Of a DNA stretch of 64,000 bases, positions 16,875-24,866 are shown one piece after another. A program made the position numbers and the translations under genes. Under the pieces are notes generated by a model. The model saw nothing but the letters and a program-made list of their open reading frames with translations, had not been told where the DNA came from and made no database searches. Source of the stretch: Pontibacter sp. G13 (GTDB taxonomy: Bacteria; Bacteroidota; Bacteroidia; J057); the NCBI RefSeq assembly GCF_031851795.1, contig NZ_CP134696.1, positions 6,944,001 through 7,008,000 on the forward strand, in the 5' to 3' direction. Every line of letters begins with the position of its first letter. The first letter of the stretch is position 1.

Positions 16875-19800
16875 TTATTTGATGCTCAGTTTGCGGGTCC
16901 ATGAACCTGCCTCTGAAACAATTTGTACGGTATATACTCCCTGTGCAAGATGCTTGACAGAGAGGCGTTGGTTGAACGTTCCTTGAGTGGAAGTCAACTG
17001 CTCACGAACTACGGTGCGTCCGTCCATGCTGAATACCTTAACATCCCAATTGCCTTGTGGCAGCGCCTCGAATTCGAGCGTCAACCAAGCAGAGGCAGGG
17101 TTTGGATGCATCTTGATATTTCCAGCCAATAGATCGTTGTTCAATCCTACGGTAGTCAAGTTGATGGTTTTGACAACTGTAGTTGATCCACAATCGTTGA
17201 GGACTTCCAAGGTAACCTTGAAGGTGTCATTCTGGGCGTAGGTGTGAATCGTAGTGGATTCGTTTCCACCCATGTTGCCATCACCAAAGTCCCAAGAGAC
17301 GGAATCGCCTGTCGAAGTAGCGTCGAAGGTTACTTCGCCTCCAGCTACAGAGTAGGTAAAGTCTGCGATCGGCAGGGAATCTTGGTAAACGATAGTCACA
17401 TCGCCGGAAGCCAATTCACAGCCATTGACATCAGTGATAGTGCCAGAGTAGGTTCCGTATCCGACACCTACCAAATCTTCAGAAGTGCTACCATCACTCC
17501 ATAGGAAGGTGTAAGGGGTGATACCGCCTTCAACCGTGATGTCGATCATGCCATCGGTATCTCCGTAGCAATCCACGTCCATGACGGTAACATTGGTGAA
17601 TGCCAAAGAGTCTGGTTCAACAATTTCGACGGAATCCGTAGCGGTACAACCGTATGCATCCGTTACGGTGACGGAATACATGCCGGCAGTGATTCCTTCC
17701 AAGGTATCGGTAGTAGCCGGACCTGCATTGTTCCATGCGTAGCTATACGGCATGACTCCATCAGTGGCAGCCAGGTACAGAGATGCAGTAGAATCTCCCG
17801 CACAAGAGATGGTATCTCCGATGGTCAAAGCCGCATCGACAGCGGAAGCAGGGATATTCACAGTGACAGTATCGAAAGTGAAGAAGCCCAACGTGTCTAC
17901 TGCAACACCGATGATGGTGCTGTCTGTGATGTTTGCGCCTGTGGCGTTGGCCAGTGTAATGGTCTGGGTGGAATCTCCCGTGCTCCAGCTATATTGCCCA
18001 TTTGGCAGGAAGCCCAAGTCGAGGGTTTCTCCCAAACAGGTATTGATGGTGTCGGAGGCTCCCAGAGACACAACGGGTGCTGTGCCAATGGCAAAGTTGT
18101 CAAATAGAACCCCTTCGTAAGAGACGGAACCGTCGGAACCAAATGCGAAACGGAATTTCACGCTAGGCATGCCTACCAGAGAAGTGTCCAATGCGTGAAC
18201 AGCTCTAAACCATCCACCGGAAGCACCAGCCCAAGCAGTGTCCTGACCTCCAGGATTTCCGTTGATACCATCTTGGTTGTACCAATTGAAGAGGTCATTC
18301 AGTTCTCCCACTCGCTGCCAAGAAGCACCACCGTCAATAGAGGATTGGAACACCAAACCATCATAGCTACTCTCTGTATCCAGCCAAAGATCCATGCCGA
18401 CCATGACCTCGCCGCTCAATCCAGAAAGATCGAAACAAGGGGTTACCAAAGCCGATTGCTCGCTGTTGTTGTAGTTGCCAGACAGATTAGTTGCCCAAAC
18501 GGAAACGCCGGAAGATGCAGAATCCAAGGTGCCACCAGAAGGAATTCCCCACTCCCAGCTCGGATTTGATCCTTCAACCACCCAGTAGGTAGGGAAGGTC
18601 TCGAAGTCCTCTACGAATGGGAACGTCGAAATGGTCGGAACGTGGAAGATGGTCTGGGTGATGGTGTCGTTTGCTGGAAGCTGGTCCGCTGGAGAGGTCG
18701 TTGTAACGATGGTCACCAATGTGTGGGCGCCGGGTGCAGAGAAATCTGCAGTAGCGGTAAACGTAAAGCTACCAGAGGTGCCTGCTACCACCAATCCAAT
18801 GCTTTCTGGAGCGGTGAATGGACCTCCATCTACGGAGAATGAAGCTTCGGCATTGGGGATATCCAAGACCCCAGAGTTGGCATACTCAACGGTAACAGGC
18901 GTCATTGCCGTAAATCCGCAACCAGATTCTGTTACATCGGAAGTTGCATTGGCCATGTCGTAGTTGAGGATCTCCTTGATTTCGATGTTGTCAAGGAAGA
19001 TATCGTTGTCTTCAGGGTCATTGACTTGGCCTTCAGAAGCATAGAATGCAACGATGATATCCTGCCCCATGTAGAAGGACAGATCGATGGTATCTGTTTG
19101 TCCGAGGTGACTGATCGAATTGTTCAGATCGTATGTGACCAGCGCGGTGTATGAACTTCCGCAATCTGTCGAAATCATGACTTTCACGAAATCATCCGAT
19201 CCGAATATCCCCGGGTTGGATGAGCTATAATCCGTCATCCCCAATTCGTAGATCAGATTGGTGGTGGCCGTTGCTGTGAACTTCGGACTTACGATCCAGT
19301 CCTCACGGGTATCTGAGTATAGGTTGATTTTCGCGCTGATTCCATTGGGATGGCTACCATCATTGAGGAAATCATCGTCTACCCAAGAATCTGCACCGAC
19401 AGAAGCTGGGAAATTCACCCCACGTGCCTCATACCATCCGGTAGAGAGGGAAGACAAGTTGCTGCCTGTGTATCCAGTAAAGTCCACGACAGGAAGTGGG
19501 CTGGCATAGACAGGTGCGTTTTCCACTTGGAAGGAAGTCGTATCGTTAGGATTTGCCGCAATTCCTTGGGCAGTACCAATCAACTCGATATCATATACAC
19601 CAACTATCGAAAGGTCGGCAACATTGGTGATCGTCACGTCGAGGGAGTCTCCTGCATTCAGGGTTCCTGTATTGACCGTGGTGGAGAAGTTCTGTACGTT
19701 TCCTCCATTGGATACATTGGCATACAGGGTTACAGGATTAACTGCAAAGTCCAAGGTTCCCGAGCCTTTTTGCTTAAGGCGGGTACTGATGGTCTCCTGA

Positions 19801-20417
19801 GATCCCAAACATCCGCTCAGTGAGGCGATGGCATTGACTTCGATATCTACCAATTGGGGTTCGAAGATCTCTACATTGTCTACAATCCAGTAGTAGGAAT
19901 AGTCTCCTGTCCAGCGGAATCGTACCTGTACGGTGCTGTATCCTGCTGCGTAGGGAGAAAGGTCAATGCTCTCGGTTTGTGGGTTGGCGGTTGTGGCAGT
20001 TCCTGTCAAAACCGATGTCCAGAAGAAGCCATTGTAGACTTCCACTTCGTAAGCGCCTCCGAAACCTCCGAGGAAGTAATGATCGAATTCGAGCGTAACT
20101 ACCGATGCAGAAGAAGCATCGAAGGTAGGCGTTTCGAGGCTCACGTCCTCGGCACCACCTGAGGAGGAGTACCAGTCACTATCGAAGATCGCCGCTGGAT
20201 CCGATATGGGAGCATTCAAGGAACGGAATCCCGGGTTGTCAAATACCCAAACATCGAAGGTTGGGTCTCCTTGGTCGATGACATTGGTCCAACCTGTCGG
20301 AGGTGTACTTCCTGAGGCTGAACTGAAGTCTTCAGAGACGAATACTTGCTGGGCTTGCAGAGGCATAGTCACAGCAAGAATCAGCATGCCCAAAATGGGT
20401 AGCAGTTTCATGTTCAT
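16875..20417 (-). CDS. Giant T9SS surface protein: choice-of-anchor J, SprB-like repeats, PKD
   Basis: 1180 residues with a signal peptide (MNMKLLPILGMLILAVTMPLQAQ). Three MAM-like 'choice-of-anchor J' modules are visible at about 25-190 (EDFSSASGSTPPTGW), 310-490 and 600-770 (FVEDFETFPTYW). Beta-sandwich stretches lie between them. At about 860-1000 two SprB-type units appear (for example DVDCYGDTDGMIDITVEGG, and DAYGCTATDSVEIVEPD), and at about 1010-1080 a PKD module (FTYSVAGGEVTFDATSTGDS, WDFGDGN). The C-terminus is a Por sorting domain (MHPNPASAWLTLEF, LAQGVYTVQIVSE). SprB repeats are known from gliding adhesins of Flavobacterium. The protein is probably a surface adhesin or structural protein; no catalytic site is seen. 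Confidence 0.85.
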   Translation of the reverse strand: MNMKLLPILGMLILAVTMPLQAQQVFVSEDFSSASGSTPPTGWTNVIDQGDPTFDVWVFDNPGFRSLNAPISDPAAIFDSDWYSSSGGAEDVSLETPTFDASSASVVTLEFDHYFLGGFGGAYEVEVYNGFFWTSVLTGTATTANPQTESIDLSPYAAGYSTVQVRFRWTGDYSYYWIVDNVEIFEPQLVDIEVNAIASLSGCLGSQETISTRLKQKGSGTLDFAVNPVTLYANVSNGGNVQNFSTTVNTGTLNAGDSLDVTITNVADLSIVGVYDIELIGTAQGIAANPNDTTSFQVENAPVYASPLPVVDFTGYTGSNLSSLSTGWYEARGVNFPASVGADSWVDDDFLNDGSHPNGISAKINLYSDTREDWIVSPKFTATATTNLIYELGMTDYSSSNPGIFGSDDFVKVMISTDCGSSYTALVTYDLNNSISHLGQTDTIDLSFYMGQDIIVAFYASEGQVNDPEDNDIFLDNIEIKEILNYDMANATSDVTESGCGFTAMTPVTVEYANSGVLDIPNAEASFSVDGGPFTAPESIGLVVAGTSGSFTFTATADFSAPGAHTLVTIVTTTSPADQLPANDTITQTIFHVPTISTFPFVEDFETFPTYWVVEGSNPSWEWGIPSGGTLDSASSGVSVWATNLSGNYNNSEQSALVTPCFDLSGLSGEVMVGMDLWLDTESSYDGLVFQSSIDGGASWQRVGELNDLFNWYNQDGINGNPGGQDTAWAGASGGWFRAVHALDTSLVGMPSVKFRFAFGSDGSVSYEGVLFDNFAIGTAPVVSLGASDTINTCLGETLDLGFLPNGQYSWSTGDSTQTITLANATGANITDSTIIGVAVDTLGFFTFDTVTVNIPASAVDAALTIGDTISCAGDSTASLYLAATDGVMPYSYAWNNAGPATTDTLEGITAGMYSVTVTDAYGCTATDSVEIVEPDSLAFTNVTVMDVDCYGDTDGMIDITVEGGITPYTFLWSDGSTSEDLVGVGYGTYSGTITDVNGCELASGDVTIVYQDSLPIADFTYSVAGGEVTFDATSTGDSVSWDFGDGNMGGNESTTIHTYAQNDTFKVTLEVLNDCGSTTVVKTINLTTVGLNNDLLAGNIKMHPNPASAWLTLEFEALPQGNWDVKVFSMDGRTVVREQLTSTQGTFNQRLSVKHLAQGVYTVQIVSEAGSWTRKLSIK

Positions 20418-21898: not shown

Positions 21899-21931
21899 TG
21901 AACGATAAACATCCGTAAGCTGGTCATATAG

Positions 21932-21964
21932 AAAAGCCGCCATTCTGTCGAATAGCGGCTTTTT
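21932..21964 (+). terminator. Rho-independent terminator after the amine oxidase
   Basis: AGCCGC (21935-21940) and GCGGCT (21955-21960) form the stem with flanking A and T runs. The T tract begins the 3' region of the leftward gene on the other strand, so it may act in both directions. Confidence 0.75.
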
Positions 21965-21975
21965 GCGTGAGGAAT

Positions 21976-23079
21976 TCATGATGCAATCATTGCCTCGTGG
22001 TAATCTCGTAACTCCCGATAAAATGAATTACCGTTTCTCTGGTCAATGGCATTGGACAAATCGGTCAATCTTTGGTTCAGCCAAGAGATCGATTCTCCCA
22101 GATCGCAAGTTTCTCCCTTCAATGGGAACCCTGTTTCTGCCTTCTCCACCTTCAATGAGATGTCCGAAAGACCCGATGCCGACATGGCCCTGAAAAACAT
22201 GTGAACACCCAGATAGAACCAATACAGCTTGTACTCGGGTTGTCTCGCGGCTGTAAATGGAAGTTGTTTTTCCAGAATCTTCCGGCCCTGCACCCATTGG
22301 CCCGTCATGGCGCAATACATGAGTAGATATCCAATATCATCTAGCCAAGGCGTATCAAAATCCATTTCTCGCTGGGCATTGGCAAACATATGGGCTGCTT
22401 CCTCTTCCTGATTCAACATGAGATGCGCAAATGCAGCTGCAGGAAAAGTCGTGGCAGGAACGTCTTTGCAAGTTTTTCGCTTAGACAAGACTACCTGTAC
22501 GGAGTCAAGCGCCTGTTGGTAGTCTTTCTGAAACATGAACAACTCCATGAGCGCATTGGGTTGGCATGCTTCGCAGTCATCGAGGCTTCCTGCTTCTTCA
22601 TCCAATTTGTATGCTTCATAATGCTCAGCCGCCACTTTCAATTCTCCTTGATAAATGGCAAGGAGGCATTTGAAATAGTGAATCACCTTGGTGCCGGCAT
22701 CTGCCTCTTGATACCGTTTTTCCATATCCAACCGAAGCTGTTCGATCTTGGCTTTGGAGATAGAGGTGAATTGTGGCAGGGAAATAATCACCCATTTGTA
22801 GCACCACAGTACTCGGAACCGATCATACCACGACGGATATTGGTCTATGTAGTTGAGCAACCAAGGAAATGAGCCGATCGCCAAATCCTTCTTGTTGAGA
22901 TGAGTGACCAGATTCAAATAGGAGTACCGTGCCTCGAACTCCAAATCGTGGTTTTTGAGGACTTGTGCTCGTTGGATACATTTCTGAAGAATAGGTTCAA
23001 ATTCTTCCTTGGCTTCGGCTTCATCGATGAGATCCACCGTCTCGGCGATTTGTTCGGCTGTGTCAAATGCGAATTTCAT
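21976..23079 (-). CDS. Helical-repeat (TPR-like) partner of the HSP90-like protein
   Basis: 367 residues, no signal peptide. The protein is almost wholly alpha-helical with a TPR-like alternation of helices: ILQKCIQRAQVLKNHDLEFEA, VIHYFKCLLAIYQGELKVAAE, ALMELFMFQKDYQQALDSVQ, AFAHLMLNQEEEAAHMFANA. A CxxC pair lies in DDCEACQPN. The start ATG overlaps the stop of the upstream HSP90-like gene by four bases (ATGA, 23076-23079), so translation is coupled. TPR proteins are common partners of HSP90 in eukaryotes, but there the contact is with a C-terminal EEVD tail that this HSP90 lacks. A co-chaperone role is inference from position and fold only. Confidence 0.7.
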   Translation of the reverse strand: MKFAFDTAEQIAETVDLIDEAEAKEEFEPILQKCIQRAQVLKNHDLEFEARYSYLNLVTHLNKKDLAIGSFPWLLNYIDQYPSWYDRFRVLWCYKWVIISLPQFTSISKAKIEQLRLDMEKRYQEADAGTKVIHYFKCLLAIYQGELKVAAEHYEAYKLDEEAGSLDDCEACQPNALMELFMFQKDYQQALDSVQVVLSKRKTCKDVPATTFPAAAFAHLMLNQEEEAAHMFANAQREMDFDTPWLDDIGYLLMYCAMTGQWVQGRKILEKQLPFTAARQPEYKLYWFYLGVHMFFRAMSASGLSDISLKVEKAETGFPLKGETCDLGESISWLNQRLTDLSNAIDQRNGNSFYRELRDYHEAMIAS

Positions 23080-24866
23080 GATAGGCTTTGGTCAATGATC
23101 GTCAGGAGGTTTTCATTCATGCACGCCAATTCTTTGGCTGTCAATGGATAATGGCTCATCATCAAGGTGTTGAAATAGATCATCTGGACATGTGGCTCCA
23201 GTTTTTTGATCTGTTTTACCTCAAAGAGCTTTTGGACGATGGGATTCTTGAGATTGAGGAATAGCTGAGACCGGAATGTAGGGCTGAAGTCAAATAGCGA
23301 GGCAGTTACTCCTGCCCAATCGTCTTTGGCTTCATCGTTGATCTGCTTGAGATCGCGTTGCTGGAGATTTTGCTGAGACATGTAGCACATGGCCGGAAGC
23401 TCAGCTGGCTCAAATTGCTTGAGATCTAGTTCTACCTCAAACTCCATCAGCATGGCCTGCAAGGACTCGATCAAGGGACGATAGCGATCATAGACCTCGA
23501 TATCGGGATCTTGCAGGATACTTCCAAAGAATTGGGCATTGACGCGCTGGATCATCTTTCCACCTGCTCCAATGTGGGCATAGGCTTCAAAAATAGAGGT
23601 GTCATAGATGTACCCCGCATTGATGATGAGTTGGTCATTGGCCTTGGCAATGGGCAACAACTGCCGATATTCGTCCAAATCCGGCACGTAGAGCAGTTTG
23701 TCGGTCCGCTTCAGAATCTCGGACAGAGAAAGACGGCCTTCGGAGGTCGGGAACACCAGCCATTCCACGATGAACCGAAAGAAGCCTTCATCGGTCAGGG
23801 CAAGCGATTTCAAGGCCTGCCCGTGAATGCTGAGGATTTCCTGAAGTGCCCTCGGATCTTCTTGGGACAGCTTGACGAGATATCCCTTGATGGATTCGCC
23901 AAGATCATGGCGAACCGATTCTAGTGTCTCATTGTCGTAGATTTCCTCTCGGGAAGCTGTCGTAGCCAGATTTTGGGAATTGACCACTACACGGACAAAA
24001 AATGCCCAATCCGGAAGCAACTTCTCCGTCTGGTTGCTGACATACATGTGCTTGATGTACACAGTATGCCTACTCGAAGATCCTGCATGGGTCTGATGTG
24101 GAAGAACATAGGCCATCCCCTGGGTTTTCCCGGAACGATCCTGAATGGGAAAGTGGAATTGGAACTGATCGTTGAGGGCGTACTTCCCAAATCTGAGGGC
24201 TTGATCCGTCATGCCCTGTGCTTCCCATGGGAATTTTCGGTCGAATAATTCTTGCGCTCCCACATTGATCGAAAACCAGACAGGTAGCGGCAAGTAGTCT
24301 GCATATCGATGGAGGAGCTGGCGGATTTTGCTTTCGTCAAGTGGAATATCGGGCTTGATTTCCAATCTGACGATGGTTCCTGTTTCCATGTCAGACTCGA
24401 TGGATTCGATCTGATAGGTTCCGTTGGTACGTCCTGTCCACTTGAAAACTTCCGATCCTGCGGCAGCACGGCTGGTGACCTCTATTTTTTCAGAGACCAT
24501 GAAGCAAGACAGCAGGCCAATTCCAAATTGACCGATGAAATCTTCATTGTTCCGATCAAACAGATTGTACCGGTCTGACTTGGAACTCGCACCGATTTTG
24601 GAAAGGAATGTCTCCATATCATCGGAGGTCAGGCCGATTCCATTGTCTCGCATCAGCAATACGCGACCGTCCGCCTGTTCGAAAAATTCTAGATGGATGG
24701 AGGGATTAAATGCCTCATGCTGTTTTCGGCGAGCGATAGCATCATGGGCATTTTGGAGCAACTCTCGGAGGAATACATCCCAATTACTGTAAAGGCTATC
24801 AGACAGAACTTTTAGGACACCTGTCAAGTCCACTTGGAACAGTGATTCTTTCATGTTGTTGTGCAA
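23076..24866 (-). CDS. Noncanonical HSP90-family ATPase
   Basis: 596 residues. The N-terminal GHKL ATPase is intact: FLRE35LLQN39AHD42A (catalytic Glu, Mg-binding Asn, adenine-binding Asp), D74NGIG78, and a glycine-rich lid around F110-IGQFGIG. The middle domain follows, without the long charged linker of eukaryotic HSP90. The C-terminus ends in IDQSLS, without EEVD. The GTIARSGT segment of HtpG is replaced by LSKIGASSKSD. This matches a separate bacterial 'HSP90 family' group rather than HtpG itself. It is the first gene of a two-gene unit with the helical-repeat protein. Clients are unknown. Start M1 or M5 cannot be separated. Confidence 0.85.
   Translation of the reverse strand: MHNNMKESLFQVDLTGVLKVLSDSLYSNWDVFLRELLQNAHDAIARRKQHEAFNPSIHLEFFEQADGRVLLMRDNGIGLTSDDMETFLSKIGASSKSDRYNLFDRNNEDFIGQFGIGLLSCFMVSEKIEVTSRAAAGSEVFKWTGRTNGTYQIESIESDMETGTIVRLEIKPDIPLDESKIRQLLHRYADYLPLPVWFSINVGAQELFDRKFPWEAQGMTDQALRFGKYALNDQFQFHFPIQDRSGKTQGMAYVLPHQTHAGSSSRHTVYIKHMYVSNQTEKLLPDWAFFVRVVVNSQNLATTASREEIYDNETLESVRHDLGESIKGYLVKLSQEDPRALQEILSIHGQALKSLALTDEGFFRFIVEWLVFPTSEGRLSLSEILKRTDKLLYVPDLDEYRQLLPIAKANDQLIINAGYIYDTSIFEAYAHIGAGGKMIQRVNAQFFGSILQDPDIEVYDRYRPLIESLQAMLMEFEVELDLKQFEPAELPAMCYMSQQNLQQRDLKQINDEAKDDWAGVTASLFDFSPTFRSQLFLNLKNPIVQKLFEVKQIKKLEPHVQMIYFNTLMMSHYPLTAKELACMNENLLTIIDQSLS

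Follow-up and report, generated by a model that had tools for sequence, protein, structure and literature searches.

Results

Two overlapping genes of an HSP90 module

The window analyzed here is a stretch of 64,000 nucleotides (nt) from Pontibacter sp. G13 (contig NZ_CP134696.1, positions 6,944,001-7,008,000), in which two overlapping genes on the minus strand encode an HSP90-like ATPase and a predicted tetratricopeptide repeat (TPR) superhelix protein, hereafter called the partner. As described below, such gene pairs recur in distant phyla. The HSP90-like gene lies at 23076-24866. Its open reading frame (ORF) specifies 596 amino acids (aa) when read from a TTG (24866-23076, minus strand); an ATG at 24854 (592 aa) is the likelier start, since homologs begin just ahead of an FQVNL-like stretch. 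The protein scored 589.3 bits over residues 6-595 with NF010683 (PRK14083, "HSP90 family protein"; curated cut-off 455), which makes it a member of that family, and 208.9 bits with the HtpG model NF003555, below its curated cut-off of 371. In fold comparison, its structure model (pLDDT 88.5) matched E. coli HtpG, TRAP1 and Hsc82/eukaryotic Hsp90 over the full length, covering the N-terminal, middle and C-terminal dimerization domains. By score and by model, the gene is a three-domain HSP90 of the PRK14083/NF010683 branch and not HtpG. Within a tree of 72 rows, obtained by a quick search, rooted on HtpG and containing some long branches, the 54 PRK14083 rows formed one clade with a support of 100, apart from 15 HtpG rows. 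The same genome carries a separate HtpG-type gene (C1:4073116-4074765), as the initial annotation had proposed to check, and this gene groups with HtpG in the tree.

Residues of the nucleotide site are almost strictly conserved among the 57 aligned members of the branch. E35, N39, D42, G76, G78, G112, G115, G117 and R306 are identical in all 57 and D74 in 56. Apart from R306, these residues fall in the GHKL N-box (E35-D42, 24741-24764), the DNGIG motif (residues 74-78, 24633-24647) and, at the lid end, a GQFGIGLLSCF motif (residues 112-122, 24501-24533) in which F114 and F122 are also invariant and C121 is kept in 54/57, all on the minus strand. R306 (23949-23951, minus strand) aligns with the SRE motif of E. 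coli HtpG and, from what is known of the family, is assigned the role of the catalytic arginine in the HSP90 middle domain. Across the 57 members the lid segment K96-G112 ranges from 10 to 20 residues, and 45 of them have 12-13, vs. 16-21 in 15/15 HtpG rows; it is thus about five residues shorter than the HtpG lid. None of 91 HSP90-like ORFs ends in EEVD, EELD or EEID, a count that includes L078, whose frame continues beyond the contig end. The short lid, the GLLSCF sequence with C121 and the end without EEVD are the distinctive traits of the branch. The window protein also matched TmtA and restriction-enzyme models of PADLOC, over the ATPase domain only (residues 10-186).

The partner gene (21976-23079, minus strand) encodes 367 aa and belongs to no named family. 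Its start codon ATG overlaps the TGA stop codon of the HSP90-like gene by 4 nt (ATGA, 23076-23079, minus strand), an arrangement that we read as translational coupling. Downstream, a strong hairpin with flanking A and T runs (21931-21964) separates the pair from a convergent amine-oxidase-like gene; folding of 21925-21975 gave -19.3 kcal/mol (z of -4.0, with 0 of 200 shuffles as good). The hairpin is likely a terminator that closes the two-gene unit, and its absence from the list of a simple terminator scan is probably owing to the loop and mismatch limits of that scan. A DUF3124 gene lies 223 bp upstream of the pair on the same strand, and the transcription unit looks to be two genes long.

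The initial annotation had described a short HSP90-family ATPase with an intact nucleotide site (E35, N39, D42, DNGIG), an altered lid and no EEVD tail, overlapping by ATGA with a helical TPR-like protein. This description holds in all but one respect: "short" is hardly apt, since the stop-to-stop frames of the gene and of HtpG from the same genome are 608 and 610 aa, respectively, and the model spans all three domains.

Structure and conservation of the partner

No Pfam or PADLOC family matched the partner at E 1, and NCBIfam gave only a chance match (E 0.064). Among 61 members of the partner family, TPR_12 matched six and TPR_MalT five at E 0.01, the window partner not being one of them, and no NCBIfam model matched more than one of the 61. 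The AlphaFold2 model of the partner, with a mean pLDDT of 96.4, is helical nearly throughout. When it was compared with known structures by VIA-align, domain III of MalT ranked first (Z 22.0, 321 aligned residues, rmsd 4.6), and next came APC/C chain O, APPBP2, Rap (Z 18.3 for that of phage Phi3T) and others, with NprR further down (Z 16.5). Sequence identity to the MalT, Rap and NprR matches was 7-10%. Foldseek matches were mainly TPR- and PPR-type repeat proteins. The model and the structure comparison confirm the helical, TPR-like character of the partner, modeled as a superhelix of paired helices.

Conservation of the partner is concentrated in four motifs, all read on the minus strand: W92-x-x-K95-W96 (22792-22806; W92 in 63/67, K95 in 66/67 and W96 in 60/67 aligned partners), D168-C169-x-A171-C172 (22564-22578; 62/67 for D168, 65/67 for each cysteine), C204-x-x-V-P208 (22456-22470; 66/67 for C204 and for P208) and, near the C-terminus, D346-x-R348-N349-x-N351 (22027-22044; D346 62/67, R348 and N349 65/67). 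The triad C169/C172/C204 is complete in 65 of 67 partners. According to the predicted secondary structure, these cysteines lie in or at the edge of two inter-helix stretches (160-172 and 199-211); that they form a metal site or a thiol switch is speculation. Both rows without the triad are the first copies of tandem partner genes (L110 and L134), and the second copies at these loci keep it. Tandem partner genes beside one HSP90 occur in some Listeria and Clostridia (L048 5797-7765, L107, L110 4560-7604 and L134 6779-9033). At L105 (4975-8922), partner matches flank the HSP90-like gene on both sides, each in two ORFs. Partners of Actinomycetota are long, with ORFs of mostly ~690-1700 aa whose starts are uncertain, and 523 aa in L095. 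Mean column identity was 35% for the partner (61 rows) vs. 47% for the HSP90-like protein (52 rows); the counts over 67 and 57 rows given above include plasmid-record rows, of which the model alignments omit six for the partner and five for the HSP90.

The partner accompanies the HSP90-like gene across phyla

Homologous loci were collected by a contig scan of named genomes, in which the window protein alone found nothing and an alignment of HSP90-like proteins used as query succeeded. The best 80 of at least 587 relatives, being those nearest to the window HSP90-like protein, were taken as named loci. They belong to Bacillota (31), Actinomycetota (17), Myxococcota (11), Planctomycetota (9), Bacteroidota (7), Acidobacteriota (2), Thermodesulfobacteriota (1) and Pseudomonadota (1), with one unplaced; L059 and L018, whose contigs are equally long, are apparently one locus of one genome. 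A profile of the partner matched at 75 of the 80, in eight phyla. In 74 of these 75 the partner is downstream of the HSP90-like gene on the same strand, and in 70 a possible partner start lies between -50 and +25 nt of the HSP90 stop codon. As to the loci without a match, L078 and L081 lie at contig ends, and for L087 and L119 the partner was located on a different contig. At L112, hhalign identified a 407-aa neighbor, overlapping by 4 nt, as a diverged partner (probability 91.9, E 6.9e-7, 341 columns), and a partner profile search of the whole L112 genome found no match in spite of it. The partner was found at 0 of 40 HtpG-type loci, these being matches below the NF010683 cut-off (L001 from PF00183) that were classed by that score and not individually by an HtpG model, with flanks of up to 1.5 kb, some of them cut by contig ends.

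Whole genomes gave a similar picture. Among 726 genomes searched, the partner was present in 134 of the 134 that carry an HSP90-like gene over the cut-off. The 592 non-carriers yielded an intact partner in two (G523 and G707) and fragments in three, all of the Paenibacillus order (G473, G426 and G540). One of the carriers, G629, has its HSP90-like gene in two matches and was counted since one piece exceeds the cut-off. In G523, of the Paenibacillus order (L205 2075-4964), the HSP90-like gene is in two overlapping ORFs beside the intact partner, for which early decay, an error or frameshifting are possible explanations. Of 395 Bacteroidota genomes, two carry the HSP90-like gene and the same two carry a partner of more than 420 bits; matches in six other genomes stayed below 25 bits. 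The window's own family (13 genomes, one of them shared with the 395) has the HSP90-like gene in four members and the partner in the same four, with three further matches below 30 bits, two of them in these carriers. The partner co-occurred with the HSP90-like gene in 55/55 carriers among 198 genomes of the Paenibacillus order and in 74/74 among 121 genomes of Streptomyces, where all 86 HSP90-like matches over the cut-off had a partner match 21-108 nt further down, as measured between profile ends. Version A4 of the partner profile was used for the Bacteroidota, the Paenibacillus order and the genomes of partner-less loci, and version A7 for the window's own family and Streptomyces. The proposal that this branch has a partner of its own is strongly supported by these counts: the partner co-occurs with the HSP90-like gene in distant phyla, and its absence beside most homologs was not seen.

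Patchy carriage of this kind implies that the pair has repeatedly been gained or lost jointly. In the HSP90 tree, the four carriers from the window's own family are scattered over three positions, which suggests transfer; the HSP90 of one of them (L004) groups with clostridial sequences. In a comparison of the two trees by eye, a group comprising the window, Fulvivirga, Aureispira and Flavobacterium sequences together with L006 appeared in both. Since the positions of L003 and L004 in the partner tree have little support, joint transfer of the pair is suggested only.

Neighboring genes

No third gene recurs across distant loci among the first and second neighbors of up to 82 loci, as delimited by simple longest-ORF calls. 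The largest clusters of neighbors held seven proteins, each within one genus or close relatives (Myxococcota; Paenibacillus), and the biggest family-crossing cluster among the 15 largest had four, from Paenibacillus and one Listeria. A set of 132 neighboring proteins from 39 loci was searched further, omitting proteins of less than 100 or more than 900 aa and three of the 135 listed, among them the diverged L112 partner. In this set the matches of any one Pfam family were limited to three proteins at 1e-8, and those of any one PADLOC family to two at 1e-10 (first 25 of 55 families, with no background control). The top PADLOC names were mainly of kinase type, fitting the two Pfam kinases in the set. 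With no third gene recurring, the unit that recurs consists of the pair alone, and the reading of the locus as part of a defense island is without support in these data.

Discussion

It is near certain that the two genes are functionally linked. A physical partnership of their products is likely, and a role of the partner as a co-chaperone is our best guess. We regard it as probable, though by no means settled, that the pair is a co-inherited functional unit of a PRK14083-branch HSP90 and a dedicated TPR-superhelix partner, most likely an adaptor or co-chaperone; binding, stoichiometry and the adaptor role are what we infer. The HSP90-like protein would work as an ATP-driven dimeric clamp in the manner of HtpG, and the partner may dock on it by some surface, without clamping an EEVD tail, and either deliver a class of clients or set the ATPase cycle. 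The eukaryotic mode, in which a TPR clamp holds such a tail, does not fit an HSP90 that has none. The lower conservation of the partner, its tandem copies and the long forms of Actinomycetota suit a recognition subunit, and would suit a private client too. More tentatively, and as a possibility to which we give less than even weight, the pair may represent a bacterial HSP90/TPR co-chaperone machine of at least eight phyla that evolved apart from the eukaryotic EEVD-clamp systems, in which a superhelix gated by metal or thiol at its conserved cysteine site chooses the clients of a short-lid HSP90 with a conserved cysteine (C121) in the lid, or acts as its switch.

Several observations weigh against a dedicated partnership or temper the figures behind it. 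The gene order is not constant: the partner is convergent to the HSP90-like gene at L132, lies upstream of it in a member of the window's own family (L004 404-3273, genome G010), is separated from it by 49-203 nt at L057, L098, L101 and L102, and is unlinked to it in two genomes (G410 and G417). Nor is the pairing strictly one to one. G411 has three partners vs. two HSP90-like genes. Among Streptomyces, G707 has a diverged long partner (L204 802-4014) and no HSP90-like gene over the cut-off, and is possibly an orphan; in G647, an N-terminal piece of an HSP90-like gene borders the edge of its contig (230 bits, below the cut-off), and the search yielded no partner. The Fisher p-values for co-occurrence, 1e-44 in the Paenibacillus order and 8e-33 in Streptomyces, overstate independence, since the genomes within a group are related. 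In the genome searches, scoring was confined to the best candidates from a first look at each genome, and remote HSP90-like members are under-sampled in the 80 named loci. Finally, Foldseek gave only weak matches to the partner, the best having an E of 1.0e-3.

One alternative is that the partner is a single obligate client, and the HSP90-like protein a private chaperone that folds or holds it; the TPR protein would then be the working component, perhaps a sensor or scaffold. The coupling of a single HSP90 gene to a single partner gene is consistent with this, tandem partner genes beside a single HSP90 (L048, L107, L110 and L134) fit a chaperone with one client family, and both the likeness of the fold to ligand- or peptide-sensing TPR proteins (MalT domain III, Rap and NprR) and the lower sequence conservation of the partner point the same way. 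We nevertheless consider a private chaperone unlikely, given that G707 has a partner without such an HSP90 and that TPR superhelices are not known to require one.

It is also conceivable that the two proteins share a pathway without contact, the operon being conserved for co-regulation only. Co-occurrence and operons prove functional linkage and not binding, and unlinked copies persist in G410 and G417; against this stand a linkage of just these two genes, maintained across eight phyla, and a near-strict joint presence, which are typical of subunits and make an arrangement without contact improbable. A conflict or defense module, whether anti-phage or inter-bacterial, is more improbable still: the initial annotation had raised a role in stress or conflict, and for conflict the patchy distribution (2/395, 55/198 and 74/121 genomes), the TmtA and restriction-enzyme matches over the ATPase domain, the transfer suggested by the carriers of the window's own family, a far cyanobacterial homolog beside a TIR-domain gene and a selection signal in lmo0941 (a hypothetical protein in PMC6901971 that, by gene numbering, would be the Listeria partner) could be cited, but the partner has no PADLOC model at E 1, the neighbors showed neither a PADLOC family beyond two members nor a recurrent third gene, and 74 of 121 sampled Streptomyces carry the pair, so that positive support for a conflict role is lacking.

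Comparison with known systems sets the pair apart in several ways. PRK14083/NF010683, to which the window HSP90 belongs by curated score, is defined on the ATPase alone. The branch probably belongs to HTPG Group C. Chen et al. (2006; PMC1525184) distinguish three lineages of bacterial HTPG, this group being the shortest in four variable regions, and report a second HTPG copy of 615 aa in Streptomyces coelicolor. From its length and distribution, we infer this copy to be PRK14083. The main text of that paper contains no word starting with operon or TPR. HtpG shares the three-domain fold and the ATPase residues with the window branch and differs from it in its separate clade, its longer lid and the absence of a partner at all 40 loci. 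The eukaryotic pairs of Hsp90 with TPR co-chaperones (Hop/Sti1, FKBP51/52 and PP5) are alike in joining an HSP90 to a TPR-fold protein, whereas the window branch is without EEVD and its partner is a long superhelix nearest to MalT domain III. Bacteria are said, in PMC7688965, to lack an ortholog of Hop. The sensor superhelices of MalT domain III, Rap and NprR are among the best structural matches of the partner; unlike these, the partner consists of a single TPR-type domain of 367 aa without any appended part, and it has a conserved CxxC and C204.

Within the open-licence PubMed Central (PMC) literature, no description of the pair was found in titles, abstract openings and passages, subscription journals being outside this scope. 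The widespread two-gene HSP90 module is real and, within that literature, apparently undescribed. Bacterial Hsp90 serves as the minimal HSP90, since it is described as being without identified cochaperones that participate in remodeling (PMC7926864), none having been identified for E. coli HtpG (PMC4428384). A 2023 report that M. tuberculosis HtpG directly associates with DnaJ2 (PMC10269695) runs counter to this view. If the partner is indeed a co-chaperone, the pair would offer a two-protein system for clean tests of HSP90 regulation and client choice, and would suggest that the partnership of HSP90 with TPR proteins arose more than once. It also gives a first functional handle for an unnamed family that includes the Listeria members and the long Streptomyces forms. 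In Listeria, lmo0942 is listed among heat-shock genes together with a variant count and is found, beside fri, in a table of cloned fragments (PMC10393277, PMC3534079), in keeping with the HSP90-like gene of L048, which also neighbors fri.

More distant HSP90-like genes are found in Pseudomonas and Xanthomonas (L052 3881-8122; L054 3947-8170), where they form a far branch of the tree and are followed by a gene for a protein of 764-774 aa, annotated as TPR in Xanthomonas and containing a C-x-x-C. As a homolog of the partner, this neighbor was rejected in Pseudomonas aeruginosa and Xanthomonas (hhalign probability 2). PA1068 and PA1069 are presumably the Pseudomonas HSP90-like gene and this neighbor, respectively. 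PA1069 was pulled down with BatR (PMC13411936) and takes up one table row in a heat transcriptome (PMC4957987); in the passage of PMC9995270 that mentions PA1068, it is the name of a strain and not of the gene. On a Pseudanabaena plasmid (L051 3944-8807), a far HSP90-like ATPase, 877 aa long owing in part to ~250 extra residues at its C-terminal end, lies beside an annotated TIR-domain gene, with an annotated TPR protein two genes downstream (hhalign probability 34 with the partner). This locus looks more like a conflict system. The text of a paper on conflict systems (PMC7159879) has no word starting with HSP90, HtpG or GHKL.

The Pontibacter sp. G13 genome also encodes a 584-aa GHKL ATPase (C1:3971391; L198 740-2494 in genome G000), with similar genes in three members of the family (L199-L201) and, in L198-L200, a gene for 740-757 aa directly upstream. 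It was set aside as a member of the branch, scoring 27 bits with the HSP90-like profile (25-30 bits across the L198-L201 group). Elsewhere in the window and unrelated to the pair, 16875-20417 on the minus strand encodes an 1180-aa protein with, as judged by eye, a signal-like N-terminus, repeats and a sorting-like C-terminal tail.

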